Shown: one piece after another, positions 3,322 to 40,629 of the stretch
Layout of the letters: every line of letters begins with the position of its first letter
How positions within the stretch are numbered: position 1 is the stretch's first letter
IMG/VR virus record: IMGVR_UViG_3300036944_001223
Span: 1-64,000 of that record
Strand: one strand, 5' to 3'
Source of the DNA: a virus
Length of the DNA: 64,000 nucleotides
Program-made: the position numbers and the translations under genes
Notes under the pieces: model-generated
Database searches by the model: none
What the model saw: the letters and a program-made list of their open reading frames with translations, nothing else
Told to the model about the DNA's origin: nothing

Positions 3322-4641
3322 ATGCAAATTGCTCAACTAACTATTCGAAACATACTCGGCTGCAAATCGCTAGAGTTTAGCCCCGGCAACTTTAATGAAA
3401 TTAGCGGGCAAAATGGCGCAGGCAAAACATCCGTCCTTGAAGCCATTAAAGCGGCAGTTGGCTCCGGTCATGACGCGACGTTATTGCATCGCGGCGCTGA
3501 AGATGGCGAAATTGTTCTGGTATTGGATAACGGTGATCAAATTCGCCGCAGGATAACTCCAAGTGCCAGTAAAACCGAAGTAACTCAAGGCGGAGTGAAA
3601 GCCAAACGTCCTACTGACGTTATTAAGCAGTTAACTGATCTAGTTTCAATTAACCCTATTGATTTCCTACGTGCCCCAAAAAAAGACCGTGTTCGCGTCT
3701 TGCTTGAGACTATGCCTCTTGAGGCTGACATTGAGTACCTGAAAAAAATTACTCGTATAAACGTGCAAGCGGAGCCCGGCATTCACGCGCTTGATGTGAT
3801 CGATAAAGTGGCAAAAATCGTTTATGACGATCGCACTGGCACAAACCGAGCTATAAAAGAAAAAGAGTCCACAATTAACCAGATGAATCTGGCCTTACCT
3901 GAAGCTCCTGCCGGAGTTGACGGGTCTGAAGCAGAGATAAATGAGGCAGTTGCTCAAGCTTATCAAGCAAAAGAAGCTGAAATGGCTCGCATTCAGGATA
4001 AGCTTGAGGGGATACGAAAAGATTCTCAGGCAGTGGTCGATAGTATACGTGCTAAGGCGCAAGAGGCTATCGACGCCATTAAAAATCAAGCGACTATTGA
4101 CGCTGAAAATGAGCGCAAAAAATTAGCTGATATAGAACAAAAAGCGGCTACTCAACGCGATCGCAAGCTGGAACAGTTCACGGCCGAAGTTGCCCCATAC
4201 CAGCAATCACTGGCTATCATTCGGGCTAATCGTGAAAACGTAGCTAAACGTGAGCAGGGATTAGATACTGTTAAAAAAATGGAAGTGGAGCTTGACGATC
4301 TGAAGCAAGACGAGCTAGCTCAAACCAAATCACTGGCTGACATTAACAATTACAAATTGCAGCTGTTAGATAGCCTACCGATCCCCGGCTTAGTTGTTCG
4401 TGATGGTGAAATATACCGTGACGATATCCACTTTGATCGACTGAATACAGCTCAACAAGTGCAAATCGCCGTGGAAATTGCCAAAATGCGAGCTGGAGAC
4501 CTTGGCCTTATTTGCGTAGATGGGCTTGAGTTGTTAGATAAAGACGCTTTTGAGCAGTTCAAAGTGAAAGCGCTTGAGTCTGGATTACAGTTATTTGTAA
4601 CCCGAGTTTCAGATGACGACTTTGCTGTAAAAGCAGAGTAA
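3322..4641 (+). CDS. SbcC/Rad50-like AAA ATPase with coiled coil
   Basis: The ATG at 3322 (MQIAQLTIRNILGC) is chosen over an in-frame ATG at 3244 that lies inside the preceding gene; a GAGAGAGAA stretch precedes 3322. The product has 439 residues. The N-terminal SMC-type fold has Walker A GQNGAGKTS at about residues 28-36. The middle (about 180-340) is rich in A/K/E/Q heptads, a coiled coil much shorter than SbcC's. The C-terminal Walker B region reads LICVDGLELLD, with Gly where a catalytic Glu is usual. Family role: DNA end tethering or repair together with a nuclease. No SbcD partner is present, and the RecE-like nuclease upstream may be its functional partner. Confidence 0.75.
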   Translation: MQIAQLTIRNILGCKSLEFSPGNFNEISGQNGAGKTSVLEAIKAAVGSGHDATLLHRGAEDGEIVLVLDNGDQIRRRITPSASKTEVTQGGVKAKRPTDVIKQLTDLVSINPIDFLRAPKKDRVRVLLETMPLEADIEYLKKITRINVQAEPGIHALDVIDKVAKIVYDDRTGTNRAIKEKESTINQMNLALPEAPAGVDGSEAEINEAVAQAYQAKEAEMARIQDKLEGIRKDSQAVVDSIRAKAQEAIDAIKNQATIDAENERKKLADIEQKAATQRDRKLEQFTAEVAPYQQSLAIIRANRENVAKREQGLDTVKKMEVELDDLKQDELAQTKSLADINNYKLQLLDSLPIPGLVVRDGEIYRDDIHFDRLNTAQQVQIAVEIAKMRAGDLGLICVDGLELLDKDAFEQFKVKALESGLQLFVTRVSDDDFAVKAE

Positions 4642-4654
4642 TACTATAACCCTA

Positions 4655-4677
4655 TCCGCGTCATTATCTGGCGCGGA
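4655..4677 (+). other. Intercistronic hairpin without U-tract
   Basis: TCCGCG and CGCGGA pair across an 11-base loop between the ATPase and the next gene. No U run follows, so this is more likely an mRNA processing or stability hairpin than a terminator. Confidence 0.4.
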
Positions 4678-4698
4678 CAATAAATATCAGGAAATATT

Positions 4699-5826
4699 AT
4701 GAGTAATAATAATTTACCAGTACAACAAGCACAAACTAATGGCATGATTGCTCAGTTTAATCAAAATGCTGGCATGCCGGCTAGTATCAATGCTGGTTCT
4801 GTCTCAATTGAATCAGAGCGAGCGATTGCAGAAGCCCGCGGGCAAATGCAATTATCAAAAATGTTCCCGCGCGATCTAACCAAAGCTCATTCCGAGCTCA
4901 TGACAGCGTGCAAATCAAAATCCTTTGCTGGTGCCGCATTCTATAGCGTTCCTCGCGCTGGCGGAGCTGTTACAGGCCCTAGCATTCGATTAGCGGAAGA
5001 GATCGCTCGAGTGGTCGGCAATTTTCAATACGGTCATCGCGAATTAAGCCGAGATGATCACAAGTCTGAAATTGAAGTGTTCGCTTGGGATGTTGAAAAC
5101 AATAACCGCAGCCTGCGTCAGCTTACAGTCATGCACGTTATTGACACGAAGCAAGGCCCAAGACCGTGCCGAGATCAAAAAGACATTGATGATAAGATCA
5201 GTAACGTAGCATCTAAGCAGGTTCGTGGGCGAATTCTCGCGCTGATCCCTAAATGGCTTCTTGAAGATGCCATCCTTGAGTGCCGTCGCACATTAACGGG
5301 TAACAACGATGAGCCGCTGGAAGTTCGCGTCAGAAAGATGACTCAGGCATTCATCAAGTACGGTGTAAACGTTGAGCATTTAGAAGCTTATTTGGGCCAT
5401 AAAGTATCTGATATTTTAGTGGATGAATTAGTTGATCTGCAAGGTGTCTATAATGCCCTAAAAGAAGGGGCAAAACCATCTGAGTATTTTAACTCAAAAG
5501 AGGAAGCCGATGCCGATGACGACGCTGCCAATATCATTAAGAACGCAGCTAAAACCTCTGCCAAGGCATCTGCACCGCAAAATGCAGCACCCGTAACAGC
5601 AGCAAAAAAAGCTGCGGCACCAGCTGCGGCACAAAAGCGCAAGTCTCCTGAGCCAGAAGTGGAACAATTAGCTGCTAACAGTGAAGTTGTTGAGCAAAAA
5701 ACTGTCGTAAATGAAGCTAAAGCAAAAAAAGAGCCTGAACCTGAGCTCGAGCCTGAACCTGAACAAGTAACTACTGAAGCAGCAACAACTGAACAGCAAG
5801 AAGAGGAAGAAGAAGATCTGTTTTAA
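4699..5826 (+). CDS. Phage recombination-associated protein, putative ssDNA-annealing protein
   Basis: 375 residues with an AGGAAA ribosome site. Residues about 60-200 hold the conserved phage block with GPSIRLAEEIARVVGN, IEVFAWDVE and RGRILALIPKWLLEDA. Proteins of this type recur beside phage PD-(D/E)XK exonucleases. The genetic position suggests a RecT/Rad52-like annealing role, but I cannot confirm the fold. From about residue 275 the protein is low-complexity (Ala/Lys, then alternating Glu-Pro) and ends EEEEEDLF. That acidic, hydrophobic tip resembles SSB C-termini or clamp-binding peptides. Alternative: a conserved phage protein of other function. Confidence 0.6.
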   Translation: MSNNNLPVQQAQTNGMIAQFNQNAGMPASINAGSVSIESERAIAEARGQMQLSKMFPRDLTKAHSELMTACKSKSFAGAAFYSVPRAGGAVTGPSIRLAEEIARVVGNFQYGHRELSRDDHKSEIEVFAWDVENNNRSLRQLTVMHVIDTKQGPRPCRDQKDIDDKISNVASKQVRGRILALIPKWLLEDAILECRRTLTGNNDEPLEVRVRKMTQAFIKYGVNVEHLEAYLGHKVSDILVDELVDLQGVYNALKEGAKPSEYFNSKEEADADDDAANIIKNAAKTSAKASAPQNAAPVTAAKKAAAPAAAQKRKSPEPEVEQLAANSEVVEQKTVVNEAKAKKEPEPELEPEPEQVTTEAATTEQQEEEEEDLF

Positions 5827-7075: not shown

Positions 7076-8263
7076 ATGCCGAAATTAACTAAAACACTGA
7101 TTGATAATTTAAAGCCTGCTGGCTTAGAACAATGGATATGGGATACCGAGCTGGAAGGATTCGGGATCAGAATTCAGGCGTCAGGCAGAAAAGTTTATGT
7201 TATTCGGTACCGAGTTAAAAATGCCAATAAAACTCAACGCAAACAAAACATTGCTCGTTGTAGCGATATTCCTCCTGAAAAAGCAAGAGAGCTGGCCCGT
7301 AAAGTTTTTGCCCAAGTTGCTGAGGGCCTAGATCCTGTTATGGAGCGAAAAAACAAAGTAGAAGCCCCAACTATCAGTGAGATGTGCGACCGCTTCTTAA
7401 AAGAGCACTCACGGCCGTTCAAAAAGCCTCGCAGCGTTGAGCATGACGAAAGTAAAATTAAAAATTACATTAAGCCTCTGGCTGGCGAGCGTAAAGTGGC
7501 GGAGTTTACTAAGGCCGACGTGCTCACGATTCATGGCAGCCTATCAGACAAGCCTGCGACTGCTAACCAAGTATTGGCATTACTCAGCAAGGCATTTAAC
7601 TTAGCTGAAGATTGGGGATGGCGAGAGCAGGGTTCTAATCCTTGTCGTCGAATTAAAAAGTACAAAATTAATGAGCGAGAGCTAATTTTAACTACTCCGC
7701 AAATTAAAGCGTTAAGCAACGCCTTAATATCACTAGAGACCGAAAATAAAATTACTCAGCCAATGGTAAATTTAGTTCGTTTGTTAATGCTGACCGGCTG
7801 TCGATTAAGAGAGATCATGCATGCAAAACTGTCTTGGGTTGATCATGAGCGCTCGCTACTTATATTGCCAGACTCTAAAGTGGGGCAACGAAAGATCCCG
7901 CTAGCTCCGCTTGCAATGGATATCATTAATTCAATACCGGATGGTGAGTGGATGATCCCTAGCAGAGTTAATGGGATCCCTATGGACTCACCCTACAAAG
8001 AGTGGTCAGCGATAAAATCTGCTGCTGATTTGCCTGCAGAGCTAAGATTGCATGACCTACGGCATACTGCGGGCTCACTTGGCCATATGGCTGGGCTCAC
8101 TCAGCAGCAGATTGCGACGCTTTTAGGACATAAGCAGATAAGCACAACAGCTAGGTACCTTCACGGCTACCACGGTGATGGTGAGCGCATAGCTGAGACT
8201 GTTAGTAACGTCATCTCGCTGGCTTGGAGCAATCCAGCAGCTAAATTGGTCGCTGCTATTTAG
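7076..8263 (+). CDS. int: Tyrosine integrase, P4-type
   Basis: 395 residues from ATG 7076 (MPKLTKTLIDNLKP), chosen because GGGCGGAGC precedes it and upstream starts fall in a terminator. N-terminus: DUF4102-type arm-binding domain (IWDTELEGFGIRIQASGRKVYV). Middle: SAM-like core-binding domain with FLKEHSR. C-terminal catalytic domain: TGCRLREI (first Arg), LRLHDLRHTAG (HxxR), LLGHKQ (His) and ARYLHG (Tyr nucleophile). The catalytic set is complete, so the enzyme should be active. It integrates and excises phage DNA, which makes this a temperate phage. I see no tRNA-like attachment core next to it. Confidence 0.95.
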   Translation: MPKLTKTLIDNLKPAGLEQWIWDTELEGFGIRIQASGRKVYVIRYRVKNANKTQRKQNIARCSDIPPEKARELARKVFAQVAEGLDPVMERKNKVEAPTISEMCDRFLKEHSRPFKKPRSVEHDESKIKNYIKPLAGERKVAEFTKADVLTIHGSLSDKPATANQVLALLSKAFNLAEDWGWREQGSNPCRRIKKYKINERELILTTPQIKALSNALISLETENKITQPMVNLVRLLMLTGCRLREIMHAKLSWVDHERSLLILPDSKVGQRKIPLAPLAMDIINSIPDGEWMIPSRVNGIPMDSPYKEWSAIKSAADLPAELRLHDLRHTAGSLGHMAGLTQQQIATLLGHKQISTTARYLHGYHGDGERIAETVSNVISLAWSNPAAKLVAAI

Positions 8264-8271
8264 TCGTGATA
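8262..8271 (+). promoter_or_regulatory. GTCGTGAT motif copy 9 (plus strand)
   Basis: AGTCGTGATA overlaps the integrase TAG stop. It is the only copy in plus orientation and lies upstream of the plus-strand TraR-like gene; an intrinsic terminator at 8288 follows it. See the finding on the late motif. Confidence 0.5.
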
Positions 8272-8287
8272 GCATTATTTTTAAATC

Positions 8288-8316
8288 AAGCCCTAATCAG
8301 GGCTTCTTTTTTATTT
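8288..8316 (+). terminator. Intrinsic terminator after the integrase
   Basis: AAGCCCT and AGGGCTT form a stem around an AATC loop, followed by CTTTTTTATTTT. Confidence 0.9.
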
Positions 8317-8326
8317 TGAGGAAATT

Positions 8327-8530
8327 ATGTCTAATGAAAATCTAGCTCAAGATGTTGAACTAAAAGAATGGGAATTTAACAATCGAGCCAGAAACCCCGT
8401 CGTTAAATTTAGTCAAAAAGATGCTGAATTTGGCCCCGAGTTCTGCGTCAAATGTGATGAAAGCATGCCATTAGTCAGGCGTCAATACGGGTATAAATTG
8501 TGCGTTACATGCAAGTCGAAAGAAGAATAG
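8327..8530 (+). CDS. DksA/TraR-type C4 zinc-finger protein
   Basis: 67 residues, the usual size of phage TraR-like proteins. Two CxxC pairs (CVKCDES at residues 42-48 and CVTCKS near 61) are separated by 15 residues, the C4 zinc finger of the DksA/TraR family; TGAGGAAA precedes the ATG. The family binds in the secondary channel of RNA polymerase and alters initiation without ppGpp. Its stop abuts the stop of the convergent spanin gene with no terminator between. A copy of the late motif lies upstream, so a role in late promoter control is possible but unproven. Confidence 0.8.
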   Translation: MSNENLAQDVELKEWEFNNRARNPVVKFSQKDAEFGPEFCVKCDESMPLVRRQYGYKLCVTCKSKEE

Positions 8531-8803
8531 TTAAGGTTTTTTCTTTATGCATCCAACTGCGGCCATTTCCCAAGCATTAGCGTATTGCTCCGCCATTTCA
8601 AAATCTTCTGCTAAAATTGCCGCGGCTGCCTTATCGCCAGGATAAGGCCCTATTCCAGTTTTAAATTCTGGGCGAGTTGGCGTCGACTCAATACAGGCTT
8701 CCTTTACCATCACTTTAACCGTCACGATCTCAGGCTCAGGTTTGGCGTTATTAGCTTGGCAGCCGGTAAGCAAAATAAACATCACAATTAAATACAATTT
8801 CAT
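8531..8803 (-). CDS. Rz1-like outer-membrane spanin lipoprotein
   Basis: 90 residues. The N-terminus MKLYLIVMFILLTGC is a lipoprotein signal with lipobox LLTGC, so Cys15 would be lipidated. The mature part is short, with Pro residues and two further Cys. It overlaps the Rz-like gene by TAATG, the usual genetic partnership. Role: outer-membrane half of the spanin complex that fuses inner and outer membranes at lysis. Last gene of the lysis cassette. Confidence 0.75.
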   Translation of the reverse strand: MKLYLIVMFILLTGCQANNAKPEPEIVTVKVMVKEACIESTPTRPEFKTGIGPYPGDKAAAAILAEDFEMAEQYANAWEMAAVGCIKKKP

Positions 8804-30121: not shown

Positions 30122-30949
30122 ATGGCACAAGTTAATTATTCAATATCATTCGATGTAGGCTCTCAATTTGAACTTAACGCCGAGATATATCAGCAGATAT
30201 TCCCGCTTTTAAACCAAGCTGTTAAAGCTGTAGCCCAACAGACTGCCAGCAATTGGCAGCAATCAATATATAAAGCAAAATTATGGTCTGTTGAAAAAGA
30301 TAAGTATGCTGGCAGCATAACTTGGTCGATGACTGGTGCGTTTACTGCCATAGTTGAAACCAGTTATCGATATGCGGAACAAATAGAAAGTGGCCGACCA
30401 GCTCGAGACCTGAAGGCCATGCTAGGCACCAGCTTAAAAGTGCGCAGGTCTAAGGCTGGTAATCGTTACCTTTATATCCCATTCCGACATAATATCCCCG
30501 GTAGCGACGCGATAGGTCAGGCTATGCCTAAAAGCGTTTATGCTATGGCTAAACAAATGACGCCATCTGTTATTACTGGGATAAAATCAAGAGAGTCCGG
30601 AACTGGAGCCTATAACATTCACTCAAAAGGAAAAATGATGGTGCCTCAGAACGTCTATGCTTGGGGTGACAAACTACCATCAGGAATGGGGCAAAAGATA
30701 AAACCTGAGCATCATAGCGATCCTTATGCTGGGATGGTTAAGTTTAATACCAGCACACCCGGCGGAGCTAAAAGCAGCACTTATCTAACATTTAGAGTGA
30801 TGAGCGAAAAATCTCAGGGCTGGATTGTACCTGCTCAACCTGGTCAACATATAGCTAAGAATGTAGCAGATGAAATGCGTCCAAAAGCTGAGAACGCCTT
30901 TTCCAAAGCTATATCTATGAGTTTGTCAAAAATAAAAGCTGGCGAGTAG
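30122..30949 (+). CDS. Inverted neck/tail-completion-like structural gene
   Basis: 275 residues on the plus strand inside the minus-strand late region. Sequence: NWQQSIYKAKLW, EKDKYAGSITWSMTGAF, YAEQIESGRPARDLKAML and YLYIPFRHNIPGS. This resembles HK97 gp10-like/minor neck proteins that usually sit between connectors and tail completion genes, exactly where this gene lies but reversed. It has its own promoter candidate (30065) and shares a bidirectional terminator (30931). Function as a virion protein is inferred. Confidence 0.65.
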   Translation: MAQVNYSISFDVGSQFELNAEIYQQIFPLLNQAVKAVAQQTASNWQQSIYKAKLWSVEKDKYAGSITWSMTGAFTAIVETSYRYAEQIESGRPARDLKAMLGTSLKVRRSKAGNRYLYIPFRHNIPGSDAIGQAMPKSVYAMAKQMTPSVITGIKSRESGTGAYNIHSKGKMMVPQNVYAWGDKLPSGMGQKIKPEHHSDPYAGMVKFNTSTPGGAKSSTYLTFRVMSEKSQGWIVPAQPGQHIAKNVADEMRPKAENAFSKAISMSLSKIKAGE

Positions 30950-33421: not shown

Positions 33422-34876
33422 TTAGAAAGGCTTCCAAGCAGCATTTGTTGGAACAATGTTCTTAATCAGAACATGCTGATTCCGCTTGGTGATGCGGAGG
33501 TAACCACAGATCATTTGCAACCATGGAATGATAGGGCTGTTTACTGCTGCCATAGGAATTTTCATCATAGGCAGGTATTGGCGCCACGCAATTGCGTGAT
33601 CCACTGGCGACAAGTTTAGCGCGTAGCTAGAAGTTGAGCCTGGGATATCTTGGTTGTTATCAACGTGAACTGTTGACGCACCGGTTTTGGCAATTTTAGT
33701 CATTTCACGAACATCTGACAGCGCAGCTGTGCCGTTCTTACGTCCGCGATAAATCACATAGCCAGTTTCAGTGCCAGCAGCAGAAGCTGTGATGGTAAGC
33801 GTCACTTTATTGCCAGCTGCAACAGTTACCGCGCCGCCCGTGGCCGCAGTAGTTTGAGTTTCGCCTTTTTCGTTGATACCTGTCACGAAATAAACGTAAG
33901 TTCCGGCCTGACCAGCTGCCCATTGAGATGTAGCGTCACCAGCAGCGGCAACAGCAGTCATTGCAGCAGGTTTGAATGATGCGTTAGCAACGGCGCGAGT
34001 CGCGTGTAAAGCATTGCGAGTTTCGAACGGTTTTTGCATCTTCTCATCACGAATAAACACATCGTTTTTCGTGGCGATGGCACCGTATGACGTTTGGATG
34101 GCGCGAACATGGGTACCATAAGAGATACTGTTCGGCGTATTATCCAGCGCAACACGGAATGCAGGATCAAGAGAGATGTTTAAATCAGTTTGTACTGAAG
34201 GCGGTAAGTATAGATCGGTAATTTTACCGAAGTTACCGTAACCGAAAACAGTCTCAGCAGCACGAGCGATCGGGCTGATATCATTCATCGGTTCGCCGCG
34301 CATATCGATGATATGGTCAGCTGAGTTCAGCTCTTCCATTTGCTGACGTAAACCAGCAAATGATTTTGGCATAACAAGGTCGTTACCTTCAAACAAGCTG
34401 AATTCAATAGATGAAAGCAACTGTTTAGTGCCGTTTACAGTTTCCAGCGCCACCGCGTCGGTGATGTTGTTCTGAGACTGCAATACGATAGGGATCTTAC
34501 GGTAGGTCGTCATATACTTGACTTTACCTACGCGGCGAGCGTACTCACCACTTGTTTCATCAGCGGCGCCGTCTTGGTCGTTAAACGAATCACCCAAGAA
34601 ACCACCGATGGATGATTGCTCAGTCCATTCGTCAAGTACCGCTGTCGCCTTAGGCTTTGGCAATGCGTTGAACAAAGAGAAATGCTGGTTGTCCTGCACT
34701 GTCGCTTGTAATGTAGTATCCAGTGATTGGATACGTAGAGCAGAGCCGCCCTGTAGAGAGCTCATCTCAGAACCATATCCAGCGTTCAAAGATTTTTGCA
34801 GCTCAGCAAGCTCCGCAGAACCAAACTCGCCAGCCATTGAAGCGCCGGAGGTGTCGAGGTTAGTCAGAAAGTCCAT
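33422..34876 (-). CDS. Major capsid protein with Ig-like insertion
   Basis: 484 residues. Position after protease and scaffold, a long N-arm, and HK97-like stretches (KVKYMTTYRKIPIVLQSQNN, GTKQLLSSIEFSLFEGND, YLPPSVQTDLNISLDPAFRV) identify it. Residues 28-53 nearly duplicate a segment of the protease. About residues 310-415 (GTYVYFVTGINEKGETQTT, then ETGYVIYRGRKNG) look like an inserted Ig/fibronectin-type domain, probably displayed on the capsid surface. The N-terminal arm carries a K-S motif at about residues 28-29 that could be a maturation site. Confidence 0.9.
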   Translation of the reverse strand: MDFLTNLDTSGASMAGEFGSAELAELQKSLNAGYGSEMSSLQGGSALRIQSLDTTLQATVQDNQHFSLFNALPKPKATAVLDEWTEQSSIGGFLGDSFNDQDGAADETSGEYARRVGKVKYMTTYRKIPIVLQSQNNITDAVALETVNGTKQLLSSIEFSLFEGNDLVMPKSFAGLRQQMEELNSADHIIDMRGEPMNDISPIARAAETVFGYGNFGKITDLYLPPSVQTDLNISLDPAFRVALDNTPNSISYGTHVRAIQTSYGAIATKNDVFIRDEKMQKPFETRNALHATRAVANASFKPAAMTAVAAAGDATSQWAAGQAGTYVYFVTGINEKGETQTTAATGGAVTVAAGNKVTLTITASAAGTETGYVIYRGRKNGTAALSDVREMTKIAKTGASTVHVDNNQDIPGSTSSYALNLSPVDHAIAWRQYLPMMKIPMAAVNSPIIPWLQMICGYLRITKRNQHVLIKNIVPTNAAWKPF

Positions 34877-34890
34877 GGAAAGTCTCCGGT

Positions 34891-35526
34891 TTAATTAATT
34901 TTAGACAGAACGTCAGCGGGAGCCGCTACGCCTGAGTTAAAAGCAGCTTCACAGCGAGCAACGTCAAGACCTGTAATGCGTCCTGCTGTATGTGCGCTCT
35001 GCGCTTTAGCCATGATCTGACCAGGTGAATCTTGTTCTGGTTCGGACTTGGCTAGAGTTGTGGGCTTTTCAGCGATGGAGACCATCGTCTTGCGCCCGCG
35101 CCCTTGGCTAGATAGAGTTTCAACTCTTTGGCTAAGAGACTTAATTAGTTCGCTTTGGCTTTTTAATGCGCCCAGCGTAGTTTGTAACGCCTTAGTCAGC
35201 GTTTCGTCATGCAATTGCAGACGAGAATCATGCTCAGCTAGCGATTTAGTCAGTTGTTCAACATCAACAACCTCATACTCTTCGCCATCTACGACCATAG
35301 ATTTGGTCATATGCTCTTTTTTCTCATCTTCTGCTGACTCAGCGCCTTCTTCAGTTGACTCAGGCTCTTCACCTTCATCTTCTTCTTCGCCTTCGTCACC
35401 TTCCGCGGCAGCGGCTTGGATCGTTTTATCATCCGCGCCGTCGTCCTGCGGGAGTGCTTTAGCAAGCGTATCCTGCTCAGCAGCCGCCGCTTCGAGTTCG
35501 GCTAGTAGCTCATTGAATTTGCTCAT
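34891..35526 (-). CDS. Capsid scaffold-like protein
   Basis: 211 residues from ATG 35526 (MSKFNELLAELEAAA), overlapping the protease stop by ATGA. Very acidic middle (EGDEGEEEDEGEEPESTEE) and coiled-coil region (TKSLAEHDSRLQLHDETLTK, LIKSLSQRVETLSSQ). It lies between protease and capsid, the standard scaffold position. It contains about eight copies of a hydrophobic-x-K-[S/A] motif, which could be protease cleavage sites. Confidence 0.75.
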   Translation of the reverse strand: MSKFNELLAELEAAAAEQDTLAKALPQDDGADDKTIQAAAAEGDEGEEEDEGEEPESTEEGAESAEDEKKEHMTKSMVVDGEEYEVVDVEQLTKSLAEHDSRLQLHDETLTKALQTTLGALKSQSELIKSLSQRVETLSSQGRGRKTMVSIAEKPTTLAKSEPEQDSPGQIMAKAQSAHTAGRITGLDVARCEAAFNSGVAAPADVLSKIN

Positions 35527-36410
35527 TGTCGCAAGCTCCGTGTAGTAAGACTTCGTTTCAAATCGCCAATAAAGCGATCCACCCACTCTGTGGCCTCGTC
35601 GGGCTGCAGATTGAATTGTTTAACAGAGAACGTTATTAATCCGTCCCCGGTCATTTGTAATGGCTGCCCTTCAATCATGCAATTTGACAGCTTGTCTCTA
35701 AAATCAAAATATGATTGTGGAGTACCGTCAAGCGACTGCATTCTGATAGCGCTGCCACCCGATAAATTAGCCATATCAGATCCGTATCCAGCCTCGAGAG
35801 ACTTTGACATAACGAATCCGTTTAAAGATTTGGCAAAAACTGCAACAGGGGCTGTTTGAGCTTCAGGAAGATGCTGATTAACTGGCGTGCGGCTCAATGC
35901 TAAATTTGTCCATCGAACTTTTGTTACTACAGCGACTTTTTCATGAGTTCGCGGATCTATGACTAGACTTTTAGCTAAAACAGAACCACCAACAGAGGGG
36001 TACCATCTAGCCGGAGGGTTCAAAGCCGTCATTGATTCCCAAACCATATTTGCATTTCTAGCCAACTCGCCATCGCCCTTGTATAGCTGTGCCTTAACAA
36101 AGGTGGTTTCGCCCTTTACTACCACATCAACAGGTCTGCCTATCTCGAAAGACATGGGGTTTACAATACCCATTTTGGCGCCGATAAGAGTGTAATGATC
36201 TAGGTCGATGTTACCAAATTTTAAAAAGTTAGCAGCGCTTTCTTCAAGCGCTTTAGCGAGCACTCGCTCGCCCTGCTGATCAACGCCTTCGTTGCTGGCT
36301 TCTAAATAGATGAAGCGTTCCCCACCCTCTTCTTTGGGCGTGGCTTTCAGCAGTGTATCAACGCTGAAAAAATCCGGTATATCAGCTAATAGCTGTTCGT
36401 CTTTGTTCAT
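35523..36410 (-). CDS. XkdF-like prohead protease
   Basis: 295 residues. The N-terminal 180 residues fit the XkdF-type U35 serine protease: FIYLEASNEGVDQQGERV, FGNIDLDHYTLIG (catalytic His region), ALNPPARWYPSVGGSVLAKS and KVRWTNLALSRTPVN. The start (ATG 36410) has no ribosome site; a late motif ends about 10 bases upstream. Residues about 198-223 nearly repeat the N-arm of the major capsid protein (19 of 26 identical). That could be a scaffold, tethering or self-cleavage segment. C-terminus is helical and basic. Confidence 0.8.
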   Translation of the reverse strand: MNKDEQLLADIPDFFSVDTLLKATPKEEGGERFIYLEASNEGVDQQGERVLAKALEESAANFLKFGNIDLDHYTLIGAKMGIVNPMSFEIGRPVDVVVKGETTFVKAQLYKGDGELARNANMVWESMTALNPPARWYPSVGGSVLAKSLVIDPRTHEKVAVVTKVRWTNLALSRTPVNQHLPEAQTAPVAVFAKSLNGFVMSKSLEAGYGSDMANLSGGSAIRMQSLDGTPQSYFDFRDKLSNCMIEGQPLQMTGDGLITFSVKQFNLQPDEATEWVDRFIGDLKRSLTTRSLRQ

Positions 36411-36741: not shown

Positions 36742-39700
36742 CTATAATAATGACTGGCCAGATGCGGCCATTTTCTTTCTTGCGCTTATGTAGCCGGCAA
36801 CGCCTGAATCATCCAAACCATCCATTGGGTCAGCCATCATATCCTTTAGCGCATATTTCTTCATGAGTCGGTCGTATGCTTTACGCTCTTCAGGGTGATC
36901 ACCATGAAGGTCGATCAGCTCAATTGCATTTTTCTGACCGATACGATCGATCCTTGCTTGTCGCTGGCTATGCGTTTTTGCTGTCTGGCTAATATCATGC
37001 TGGATCAAATACTGCCCTGATTGTAAATTCATGCCAACGGCGCCCGCATCAGAAGCAATCAGGATATCAGCTTGAGCCTCACCCTTCTCAGGATTGAATA
37101 GTTTACGCTTAGCGTCCTTATCCTTAGCACTGTCAGATCCAGTAATAGTGACCACTTTTTTACCAATGGCCTCCATCGCTTGGCGGTACTGCTCAACGCT
37201 GGCTTTATTTCGCGCAAATATCACGCCCTGCTTACCGTTTCTTTGCTTTACCATTTCAACAGCATGAGCAACTTTAGCATTGTCAGGGTGAGTGTTAATT
37301 ATTTTGTTCACTGCCGAAGATCTGAGTATTCCTAAGCTGTTCTGTATGCCTTTAGCAATATTCTCATGCTCTGACTCTGGTACCCCATCGAATGAGTTGG
37401 GACTGATCGCTTTAGCCGCTGCGATATCAACCTTGCCCGTAGTTCTCGCTGCCCTCGCTTTGATCATATGCTGAGATAACTCATCTAATGCCTTTTTCTG
37501 CCCAGCTGAGAGCGGCACCTTTTCCGTTAGCCGGCTACGAGCAACATCTGGAGAAATTGACGTAGGAAATACATACCGAGCCATTTCTCGTTTAAGGGCT
37601 TGCTTACTCGCAATCGTGTCAGCGCCATATTTGCGCATAAACTCATTGCGATCACTGTATTTCTCAGGATCCATTTTCTGCAGCAAAGAATGGATCTCAC
37701 TAGAGTCGTTTTTCACTGGGTCGCCGCTCGCATAAACGTGATACGGAGTATTATGCCCGACGGCCTCAACAACGTTAGCTAGACTTGAGTTCTCCTTACC
37801 TGCTCGATTTAACGTATCGTGAGCCTCATCAACAAAGGAAGCGTCAAAGTTAATGCCTTCCTTCTTCATAGTATCTGCGGCCCACTGCTTGCGCTCAGCC
37901 GTGCTCATACTGCCAATCTTAGACGTCATCTCGGACTCGCTCACCCCCGCATGCTGAGATGCTAGATGGATCATGTCGTCACGGAATGATTGATGCGTCA
38001 TTACAGCAATATGCGTTTCAGGATCTTTATACGCCGCAATTCGTTCTGCTTGACTTGCACCAGGCTGAATATGCGTCTTGAATTTTCCAGCCTCCAATAA
38101 ACGCAGCGCCTCGCCGGAGAACTGGCCCTGCACAATACTTGGGACCAGCATGATCGAGCGCTTAACTTTGCCAAGCCCACTGAGATGAGCATGGGCACCC
38201 AACATTATGTTAGTTTTACCGCTACCAGCGCCAGCTGCCAACGCCACGCGCTTATTTGCGGCGATCAGTTTTATAGCTCGTTGCTGAGGGGCATACTTGC
38301 CAGACATGCTGATCCCCCATAACTTTGTGGGCTGATTAGGCTTAAAGTTTTGCCCCACAATCCCCATCATTCCTGCAATTTGATTTTCTGCCTCGGTACC
38401 AAGCGTCACTTTAGATGAGTCGGCGCCAGTGATCCCGTTAAAATCAATTCCATTGCGCAACTGGCCTTTGCCGGCTTTCAATGGTGATGACGGGTTTAAT
38501 TTATTGTGATGCTGCACAAACGAGTTAGATAATTTCGACCTTACCATATCCTGAGCTGTTGCATAGGCATTGGCTGCGCCGCTCATCTGGCCGACAAAAT
38601 CTTTCCAACCCATACCAGTAGAATCAGTGAAATGGTCTCTCAATACCCGCTGATCGGTTTTACTTAGCTCACCAATCTGCTTATACGCAGTCACACCTTC
38701 AGGATGTTCCGACAATGCTCGATGAAGAGCATCAACAGACTTTTGATTGACCTCAAATTTTTGAGAATTCAACTCTGGACTATCTGCTTCTGCTTGCTCA
38801 ACAATGCCGGGCTTCACTTCCATAGCTAAATCAGGTCTGTTGTCCACGCCAAGAGGTAGCCAGCCATCCTCGTCTTGATCGCCTCGTATTATTGACAGAT
38901 TCCGCTTAACTTGCTGAACATCATCACGAGAAACTGGCTTAGCCAACCTATCCATGCCGTCGGCATTCACCTTTAAGAACGTGTCGCCACCAACCCGCTC
39001 AAGCTCATAGTCACCAGGCATTAAGCCTATCGCCCGAATCTGTTTAATTGCCTGCTGCGCCCCGATTTGACCTAGTGACACCTCAAAGTGATCTTGCTTA
39101 CCCTGCTTTAATGCCATAACCAATGAAGCATTAGCCTCCATCTCACCAAGTGATTGCCCTAATATCCGCTGAGCATCACCAATGGCAGCGCGACGGCGTC
39201 CATTGAGCTCTTGAGCTAGAGACAGTTCAGCTCCATTGGTTGCCTCAGCGGATATCTCTATATCCTTGGCTGCATCAGTGAGCTCTCTGGCTTTTTTCAG
39301 GCTCTCCGTGCTGGTTTGCATGTAATGGTTTAAATGCCAATCCTGCATTCCTGCAGTAACATGCCCGAGCTCTTCAGGAGATAAATCCGATTGCAGTCTC
39401 CGCGCCAATATCTGCGATGCGCCAGCAATACCCAAAACGTCGACTACAGACCGATCAACTAGCGCTTCGCCGCCAACAGCAAGGGCCAATGAATTGATTG
39501 AATTATAAGCCCCAACTCCAATATGACCGCCTAATGTATCCTCTGGCGAACCGCCAGCGATCCGGTGGACTTCAGATAAAAAAGCTTTTGTCTGAACAGT
39601 ATTTAGCTCGCTTTCAAGATCCTTAGCCATCTTCGCATCAATATCAGCGTCAGATGCCTCGATGACAAACGCCTTAGGTTCAGCTTTTGCTTTATCTATC

Positions 39701-40629
39701 TCAGAGTTAGCCGATCTTGCCGCCTTTTCAATTAAAGCAAGTTTCTTACCTTCTTTGAGTATATCAACAGCGTCTTTAGCACTGATCAAGGAAAAATCAG
39801 CCTCTGGTGCGGCAGGCTCTTTAACGCCATCAAGCTCCTTTTTGAGTAGATCTGCTGATTCTTTTTTAGCAAAAATAGCCTTCTTCTGCTCGTCAGTCAT
39901 GCCCGCCAGCTTAATTTGGTCTGCCTCTGCCTGCAATGCCTCATCTGTAAGCCCAGAAGCCTCAGCGCGAGCCTTGTAGTCTGGATTGAACCCTAGGCCA
40001 GCTTTTGCTTTTTTTGAGGGGTCTAGGTCGGACACTGAGAGACTGGCAGGATCATCGCTGAATAAAGGCACCTCACCGATGCCAGCTTCCTTACGCGCGG
40101 ACGGATCATTAACAAGTTTATCCTGGCTTTGTTTAATGACCATTTTCGCGCGTCTAAGAAGGTTCGAATGATGCTGGTTTCTTAGTTTATTAATTGCCGC
40201 ATCAGACAGGTGGGAATACTCAGCATCATTAAACTCAAGATCCGCCTCATCCCACCCAACTTTTTTACCTACCGCACTAATAACTGATTTTTCAGCAGCT
40301 GTTTTTTGCGCTTTAATGTCTTTTCTGGCTGCTTGCTTTGCATCATGAATGCCGGCATCTTTATCCGCGCTAATCTGCTCTTTTCGTTTAGCTTTAGCCT
40401 CATCTTTCTTTTGCTTTGATTCTTTAGCGTACTCGCCTTTTGATTTAACGTTCCGAAGCTTCAGATAATTTAAACTGCCACCAGCGCCGCCAATTACTCG
40501 AGCTGATCCGTCAGGCTGAGGCTGAATAAGAACAGCCTGACCTTTACCTGAGCCATTACCGCCGTGAACAGTGATCCAGTGTGCGTCCTCAGGGATAGCG
40601 GACGCTTTAGTTAAGATAACCTTTTTCAA
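36742..40629 (-). CDS. Polyvalent head protein with SNF2-family helicase
   Basis: 1295 residues from a TTG start at 40629 (AGGGG 8 bases upstream; no nearby ATG). Residues 1-60 form a small glycine-rich beta domain (WITVHGGNGSGKGQAVLI, ARVIGGAGGSLNYL) seen at the N-terminus of large phage polyvalent proteins. A long helical, charged region follows. The helicase occupies about residues 780-1290: AGSGKT (Walker A), VDEAHD (Walker B), GVIFARNKASVEQYRQ, and AVGMNLQSG with QRQARIDRIGQ (SNF2 motifs V-VI). Encoded in the head operon after MuF, so it may be packaged and injected to protect or remodel incoming DNA (inference; compare P1 DarB). Confidence 0.8.
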   Translation of the reverse strand: MKKVILTKASAIPEDAHWITVHGGNGSGKGQAVLIQPQPDGSARVIGGAGGSLNYLKLRNVKSKGEYAKESKQKKDEAKAKRKEQISADKDAGIHDAKQAARKDIKAQKTAAEKSVISAVGKKVGWDEADLEFNDAEYSHLSDAAINKLRNQHHSNLLRRAKMVIKQSQDKLVNDPSARKEAGIGEVPLFSDDPASLSVSDLDPSKKAKAGLGFNPDYKARAEASGLTDEALQAEADQIKLAGMTDEQKKAIFAKKESADLLKKELDGVKEPAAPEADFSLISAKDAVDILKEGKKLALIEKAARSANSEIDKAKAEPKAFVIEASDADIDAKMAKDLESELNTVQTKAFLSEVHRIAGGSPEDTLGGHIGVGAYNSINSLALAVGGEALVDRSVVDVLGIAGASQILARRLQSDLSPEELGHVTAGMQDWHLNHYMQTSTESLKKARELTDAAKDIEISAEATNGAELSLAQELNGRRRAAIGDAQRILGQSLGEMEANASLVMALKQGKQDHFEVSLGQIGAQQAIKQIRAIGLMPGDYELERVGGDTFLKVNADGMDRLAKPVSRDDVQQVKRNLSIIRGDQDEDGWLPLGVDNRPDLAMEVKPGIVEQAEADSPELNSQKFEVNQKSVDALHRALSEHPEGVTAYKQIGELSKTDQRVLRDHFTDSTGMGWKDFVGQMSGAANAYATAQDMVRSKLSNSFVQHHNKLNPSSPLKAGKGQLRNGIDFNGITGADSSKVTLGTEAENQIAGMMGIVGQNFKPNQPTKLWGISMSGKYAPQQRAIKLIAANKRVALAAGAGSGKTNIMLGAHAHLSGLGKVKRSIMLVPSIVQGQFSGEALRLLEAGKFKTHIQPGASQAERIAAYKDPETHIAVMTHQSFRDDMIHLASQHAGVSESEMTSKIGSMSTAERKQWAADTMKKEGINFDASFVDEAHDTLNRAGKENSSLANVVEAVGHNTPYHVYASGDPVKNDSSEIHSLLQKMDPEKYSDRNEFMRKYGADTIASKQALKREMARYVFPTSISPDVARSRLTEKVPLSAGQKKALDELSQHMIKARAARTTGKVDIAAAKAISPNSFDGVPESEHENIAKGIQNSLGILRSSAVNKIINTHPDNAKVAHAVEMVKQRNGKQGVIFARNKASVEQYRQAMEAIGKKVVTITGSDSAKDKDAKRKLFNPEKGEAQADILIASDAGAVGMNLQSGQYLIQHDISQTAKTHSQRQARIDRIGQKNAIELIDLHGDHPEERKAYDRLMKKYALKDMMADPMDGLDDSGVAGYISARKKMAASGQSLL

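Follow-up and report, generated by a model that had tools for sequence, protein, structure and literature searches.

The head module of this phage raises a precise question: why should a maturation protease contain a piece of the capsid protein of the same head? In the window—the whole 64,000-nucleotide stretch that was analysed—the genes for the protease, a scaffold-position protein and the major capsid protein follow each other in this order on the minus strand (Table 1), and the first and the last share a segment of 26 residues. The capsid protein is a major capsid protein of the HK97 fold, as indicated by PHROG 752 and by a fold match with the SPO1 capsid (9vel, E 5.5e-31).

The initial annotation called the protease XkdF-like, a label that finds no support: up to an E value of 1 the Pfam XkdF profile matches neither this protein nor seven related proteases, and a Pfam search with the window protease gave no hit at all. 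The protein belongs with the head maturation proteases of PHROG 1028, and Peptidase_S78 (PF04586) matches its relatives in SPO1, P100 and 812, and also the protease of HK97. The model of its catalytic domain is closest to T4 gp21 (5jbl, Z 13.1, rmsd 3.2 over 148 residues), the next structural matches being herpes assemblin folds (Z about 5–7), and H72 and S139 are invariant in the protease alignments. By profile and predicted fold it falls among the head maturation proteases, PHROG 1028/Peptidase S78-like, with a gp21/assemblin-type model and a conserved His and Ser. In the AlphaFold model residues 181–226, which contain the segment, are disordered (pLDDT below 50), and the C-terminal helical domain is confident (pLDDT mostly above 90). 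A helix-GLTKSQA-helix pattern resembling that of this domain (35526-35720) was seen by eye at the end of HK97 gp4, in its C-terminus.

Two neighbours of these genes may be mentioned. Directly upstream of the protease, within the head module, lies a gene for a 1295-aa SNF2/DEAD-type helicase (PHROG 62; 36742-40629), found at the same place in PHB04, Mecenats66 and Cumys. On the other side, a 275-aa ORF on the plus strand (30122-30949) stands within the otherwise minus-strand head/tail block; it may encode a tail-completion type protein.

Table 1. Coordinates of the head-module features in the window.
Feature	Position	Strand	Basis
Major capsid protein, 484 aa	33422..34876	minus	PHROG 752, E 1.9e-77; nearest solved structures SPO1 9vel, 812 5lii/9row
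Predicted capsid propeptide, residues 1-28, putatively removed after K28	34793..34876	minus	alignment to phage 812 MCP
Shared segment, capsid copy, residues 28-53, start of mature N-arm	34718..34795	minus	19/26 identity with protease copy
Scaffold-position protein, ATG start overlapping protease stop (ATGA)	34891..35526	minus	SPO1 gp3.3-like gene order; 7 cleavage-like motifs vs 1.0 expected
Maturation (prohead) protease, 295 aa	35523..36410	minus	PHROG 1028, E 2e-27
Protease catalytic domain, about residues 24-180, invariant H72 and S139	35871..36341	minus	T4 gp21 fold; conservation
K194, predicted self-cleavage site VFAK|SL	35829..35831	minus	lysine invariant in both protease alignments; motif enrichment
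Shared segment, protease copy, residues 203-228, disordered linker; preceded by second predicted site MSK|SL at K203	35727..35804	minus	
Protease C-terminal helical domain, residues 231-295, probable scaffold-docking domain	35526..35720	minus	pLDDT mostly >90; divergence tracks scaffold

The shared segment and its carriers

The capsid copy, KSLNAGYGSEMSSLQGGSALRIQSLD, and the protease copy, KSLEAGYGSDMANLSGGSAIRMQSLD, are identical at 19 of 26 positions. This likeness was first noticed by reading the sequence, with the capsid copy placed correctly and the protease copy put five residues too early, at 198–223, and it stands up to statistics: the full-length proteins reach a local score of 109, whereas 2000 shuffles averaged 36 and never exceeded 66 (Gumbel p 1.8e-8). 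Without the segment the score is 34, that is chance, so that the remainder of the two proteins is unrelated, as had also been claimed. With the protease as query against the whole record, the capsid segment was recovered independently (E 1.3e-8). At the DNA level the copies agree at 49 of 78 positions only, and where residues are identical the codon is shared in 7 cases for 6.8 expected; the likeness is therefore one of protein and does not come from a recent duplication of DNA.

A profile of the segment found the capsid and protease ORFs and no third ORF, either in the window or in the loci of relatives. One candidate, encoded upstream of the MT835500 protease gene and containing VLQRESLDGETKNI, proved a chance likeness (score 24 against its own capsid segment, shuffle mean 27). 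In the monomer model of the capsid protein the segment has a low pLDDT (30–59).

Relatives were gathered from annotated phage genomes and IMG/VR loci and dereplicated to 52 genomes, protease and capsid being paired by profiles that exclude the segment. In 51 of the 52, the tail of the cognate protease scores higher against the capsid N-region than every one of 300 shuffles. The carriers are Herelleviridae (SPO1, EalM-132, LysYB1, P100, 812, EF24C, A9, Lb338-1), Thermus phages, weakly so for Lalka27a, and the PHB04-like phages of about 90 kb, to which the phage of the window belongs; the single exception is MT835500, from human gut. Two of these genomes show other peculiarities: in MT835500 a Hint/intein-like sequence, seen by eye, lies upstream of the protease gene (about 1187-1700 of locus L033), and in Lalka27a an annotated CRISPR repeat and a TnpB-family gene come shortly after the capsid gene (7421-8567 of locus L025).

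Distant relatives were sought with single-protein queries. In two further cultured phages, Bacteroides phage DAC19 and Chryseobacterium phage MA9V-3, the protease homologues have no copy of the segment; in both the match to the protease family ends at the catalytic domain. The DAC19 protease does score 48 against the capsid N-region, but this alignment falls inside the catalytic domain and does not concern the segment. Nor is a segment shared by protease and capsid in HK97, D3, T4, lambda, Mu and P2. Homologues without the segment, put forward at the outset as the case that would tell against a role in maturation, thus exist in DAC19 and MA9V-3, and the proteases of HK97, D3 and T4 have no segment either, which goes part of the way towards that case; within its own phage group the segment is near-invariant. 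As judged from these comparisons, it is a feature of one large phage group and not a universal requirement of maturation, since the Bacteroidota-phage relatives and HK97, D3, T4, lambda, Mu and P2 do without it.

Cleavage context

The deposited mature capsid chains of phage 812 (PDB 9row, 9rox, 9roz) have S25 as their N-terminal residue; the lysine before it, K24, opens the shared segment. The probable cleavage motif is hydrophobic-x-K|S/A. Counted as hydrophobic-x-K-S/A/G, it occurs 122 times in the scaffolds for 22.7 expected and 101 times in the proteases for 22.4 expected; the capsids have 40 for 30.4 expected, and the other genes of the window are at background level, so that the enrichment, about fivefold, is confined to scaffold and protease. 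The capsid site of HK97, FNK103|SLG, also fits the motif. In MA9V-3 the protease is apparently fused to a scaffold (532 aa; 3324-4922 of locus L106) with no copy of the capsid arm, and this fusion has 21 such sites for 2.8 expected.

In the proteases a motif site lies at the segment or shortly before it. The residue that follows the conserved protease lysine (K194 in the window) is C instead of S/A in a few genomes, most copies keep a K-S/A that looks cleavable, and in Mecenats66 and the Thermus Cumys group the arm is kept while the K at its start is absent. The segment thus probably follows a cleavage site in the capsid protein and usually also in the protease, and the early suggestion of a cleavage or recognition sequence retains its place. 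From the motif at K194 we infer that the protease may cut itself there. Such behaviour has a precedent in gp245 of SPN3US, a protease that cuts off its own C-terminal propeptide as the head matures, although at a different motif, A-X-E (PMC10052503). If correct, hydrophobic-x-K|S/A would give a simple rule for predicting the processing of scaffold and protease in this phage group.

Joint change of the two copies

Across distant lineages the two copies of one genome score about 91 against each other, when orthologous copies score 42–63 on average. When the six lineages were re-paired at random, 152 of 100000 trials reached the total of the real pairs; this frequency, about 1 in 720, is the smallest attainable with six lineages. 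Novelties of a lineage are present in both copies, e.g. TAGDPHALD in Thermus Cumys and HGGTDQ in Brochothrix A9. Over the genomes, identical residues share their codon in 588 of 1117 cases for 516 expected, the excess being marked in a few of them, e.g. L091 and L037; on codon use, we thus reject recent gene conversion as the principal cause, although single genomes may be exceptions. As the likeness within genomes far exceeds that between orthologs, the copies evolve in concert, mainly by selection, and in a few genomes perhaps also by occasional conversion.

For 29 genomes of the window's lineage, distance matrices were compared by multiple regression, and three adjacent pieces of the protease turned out to have three different partners. 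The linker before the segment follows the catalytic domain (beta 0.43, p 0.0005). The segment goes with the capsid core (beta 0.57, p 0.0005) and not with its own catalytic domain (beta 0.15, p 0.16), its own C-terminal domain (beta -0.02) or the scaffold (beta -0.07, p 0.63). The C-terminal domain tracks the scaffold (beta 0.53, p 0.0005), which makes of it a probable scaffold-docking domain.

The capsid-core signal is that of the split between two capsid types, and it vanishes inside either type alone; within type I the segment follows nothing significantly, so that this signal rests on the switches of type. Inside type I the C-terminal domain still follows the scaffold. On the tree of catalytic domains the capsid type changes four times, at least three of them on supported branches, and the type of the protease segment is that of the capsid in 29 of 29 genomes; reduced to the three independent supported switches, a sign test gives p 0.25. 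ST4 and L005 illustrate such switches: their catalytic domains are 67–71% identical to that of the window, yet they have type II capsids together with type II protease segments, and by their sequences they behave like natural chimeras. When the capsid type switched in the window lineage, so did the segment, with no corresponding change of the scaffold. The SPO1-like set alone has no power to separate tracking of the capsid from tracking of the scaffold. The co-variation that had been proposed for homologous pairs is therefore found, strongly between lineages and, in the window lineage, as matched switches of capsid type; the proposed link of the protease to the capsid shell survives.

What the capsid arm may do in the protease

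The explanation that we prefer, and to which we give an even chance of being right, is that the protease carries a mimic of the mature capsid N-arm, directed to the capsid, by which it would engage the capsid protein while its C-terminal domain engages the scaffold, before cutting itself. The mimic would lie in a flexible linker between the catalytic and C-terminal helical domains. In the procapsid the C-terminal domain would dock on the scaffold and the mimic would bind the capsid protein where the capsid arms bind, both contacts placing the protease and holding it at the shell. Once activated, the protease would cut itself, the scaffold and the capsid protein after hydrophobic-x-K; the self-cut would free the catalytic domain and leave a C-terminal fragment whose new N-terminus resembles that of the mature capsid protein. 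That the copy was kept matched to the capsid arm over evolution suggests that the protease uses it to join or sense the growing shell. Docking is also favoured by the near-universal presence of the copy, by the tracking of the capsid core with matched switches of capsid type, and by the disordered state of the modelled segment, which would suit an arm that binds. On the other hand, the first 24 residues of the N-arm are invisible in the D3 Prohead 1 map (PMC12749128), so that an ordered site for binding the arm may not exist before expansion, and docking is further weakened by the existence of related proteases without the segment, by the small number of independent supported switches behind the capsid-core signal and by its disappearance inside each capsid type.

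The self-cut fragment might even stay in the shell as an impostor arm, occupying arm positions as a minor structural peptide of the virion and marking the sites of the protease. We consider this extension doubtful; consistent hints are that the protease was detected in CKA15 particles with 29.5% coverage, for which the authors suggest residual amounts (PMC12282133), and that in fHe-Yen8-01 the protease and scaffold-position proteins are annotated as particle-associated.

The main rival of arm-mimic docking is an extended substrate for self-cleavage: one protease would recognise the K|S site and the downstream arm in both proteins, and this shared recogniser would keep the copies identical. In its favour, the segment opens at a probable cleavage site of the capsid protein and, in most cases, of the protease, and SPN3US gp245 is known to process itself at a C-terminal propeptide (PMC10052503). 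However, motif sites are numerous in the scaffold and in the N-terminal portion of the protease, and no arm accompanies them; in Mecenats66 and Thermus Cumys the arm persists although its initial K is absent; and the divergence of the segment does not significantly follow the catalytic domain. Moreover the matching block extends about 25 residues beyond the cut, and the subsites of proteases usually reach less far. A pure cleavage-site reading is weakened by the arms without K, the length of the block and the scaffold sites without arm, and we regard the extended substrate as possible but the less probable account.

The same sequence could also act as a brake, the linker arm occupying, as a pseudosubstrate, the active site of the protease that carries it or of one next to it and keeping that site inactive until real capsid arms, arriving with assembly, displace it. 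The identity with the substrate arm, the position next to the catalytic domain and the uncleavable variants without K would suit a brake; we nevertheless find it improbable, as the model does not put the segment in the active site (pLDDT below 50 at 181–226) and most copies have the cleavable-looking K-S/A, unlike a stable inhibitor. Binding of both arms to one scaffold site, the scaffold-docking tag of the initial annotation, would account for the shared sequence and for co-assembly, but it is disfavoured and to us quite improbable: the divergence of the scaffold predicts the C-terminal domain and not the segment, and the joint switch of capsid type and segment in the window lineage had no scaffold counterpart. 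As for a functionless relic of duplication or gene conversion, to which the small overall excess of shared codons, marked in L091 and L037, might point, we judge it very improbable, the segment being kept across very distant phages with synonymous sites near expectation and with lineage-specific changes matched in both copies.

Compared with known systems, SPO1 gp3.2, 812 gp94, P100 gp15 and EF24C ORF014 are direct homologues with the same gene order and the same arm copy, and nothing essential differs. HK97 gp4/gp5 shares the protease family (PF04586) and a capsid site of the same kind, but gp4 has no copy of the capsid arm (score 47, shuffle maximum 59) and the HK97 scaffold is a domain of the capsid protein. 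The fold of the window protease model is that of T4 gp21, which also lacks an arm copy (score 37, shuffle mean 35), and the cleavage motif of gp21 differs from hydrophobic-x-K. In herpesvirus assemblin (pUL26) and lambda C/Nu3, too, the maturation protease has a piece in common with a second protein of shell assembly. There the piece is scaffold sequence and delivers the protease, whereas in the window it is the capsid N-arm, and no ORF other than these two, capsid and protease, is matched by the profile of the segment; lambda C has no segment in common with E. In HK97 the protease is built into the procapsid, as it would be here, in about 60 copies (PMC12749128).

In the literature, within its limited open-access coverage, we found no description of a segment common to protease and mature capsid arm, including for SPO1, 812, P100 and EF24C; a protease piece shared with the mature capsid arm, as opposed to the known pieces shared with the scaffold, thus appears provisionally new. 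To our knowledge, the recruitment, spacing and clearing of maturation proteases in procapsids are poorly known outside HK97 and herpesviruses. An arm mimic conserved from Thermus phages to Herelleviridae would offer a mutable handle on the recruitment of the protease in a model phage, e.g. SPO1, with clear predictions since one and the same protein has a segment that tracks the capsid and a C-terminal domain that tracks the scaffold. The segment is also a candidate tag for loading cargo into the capsids of this phage group.
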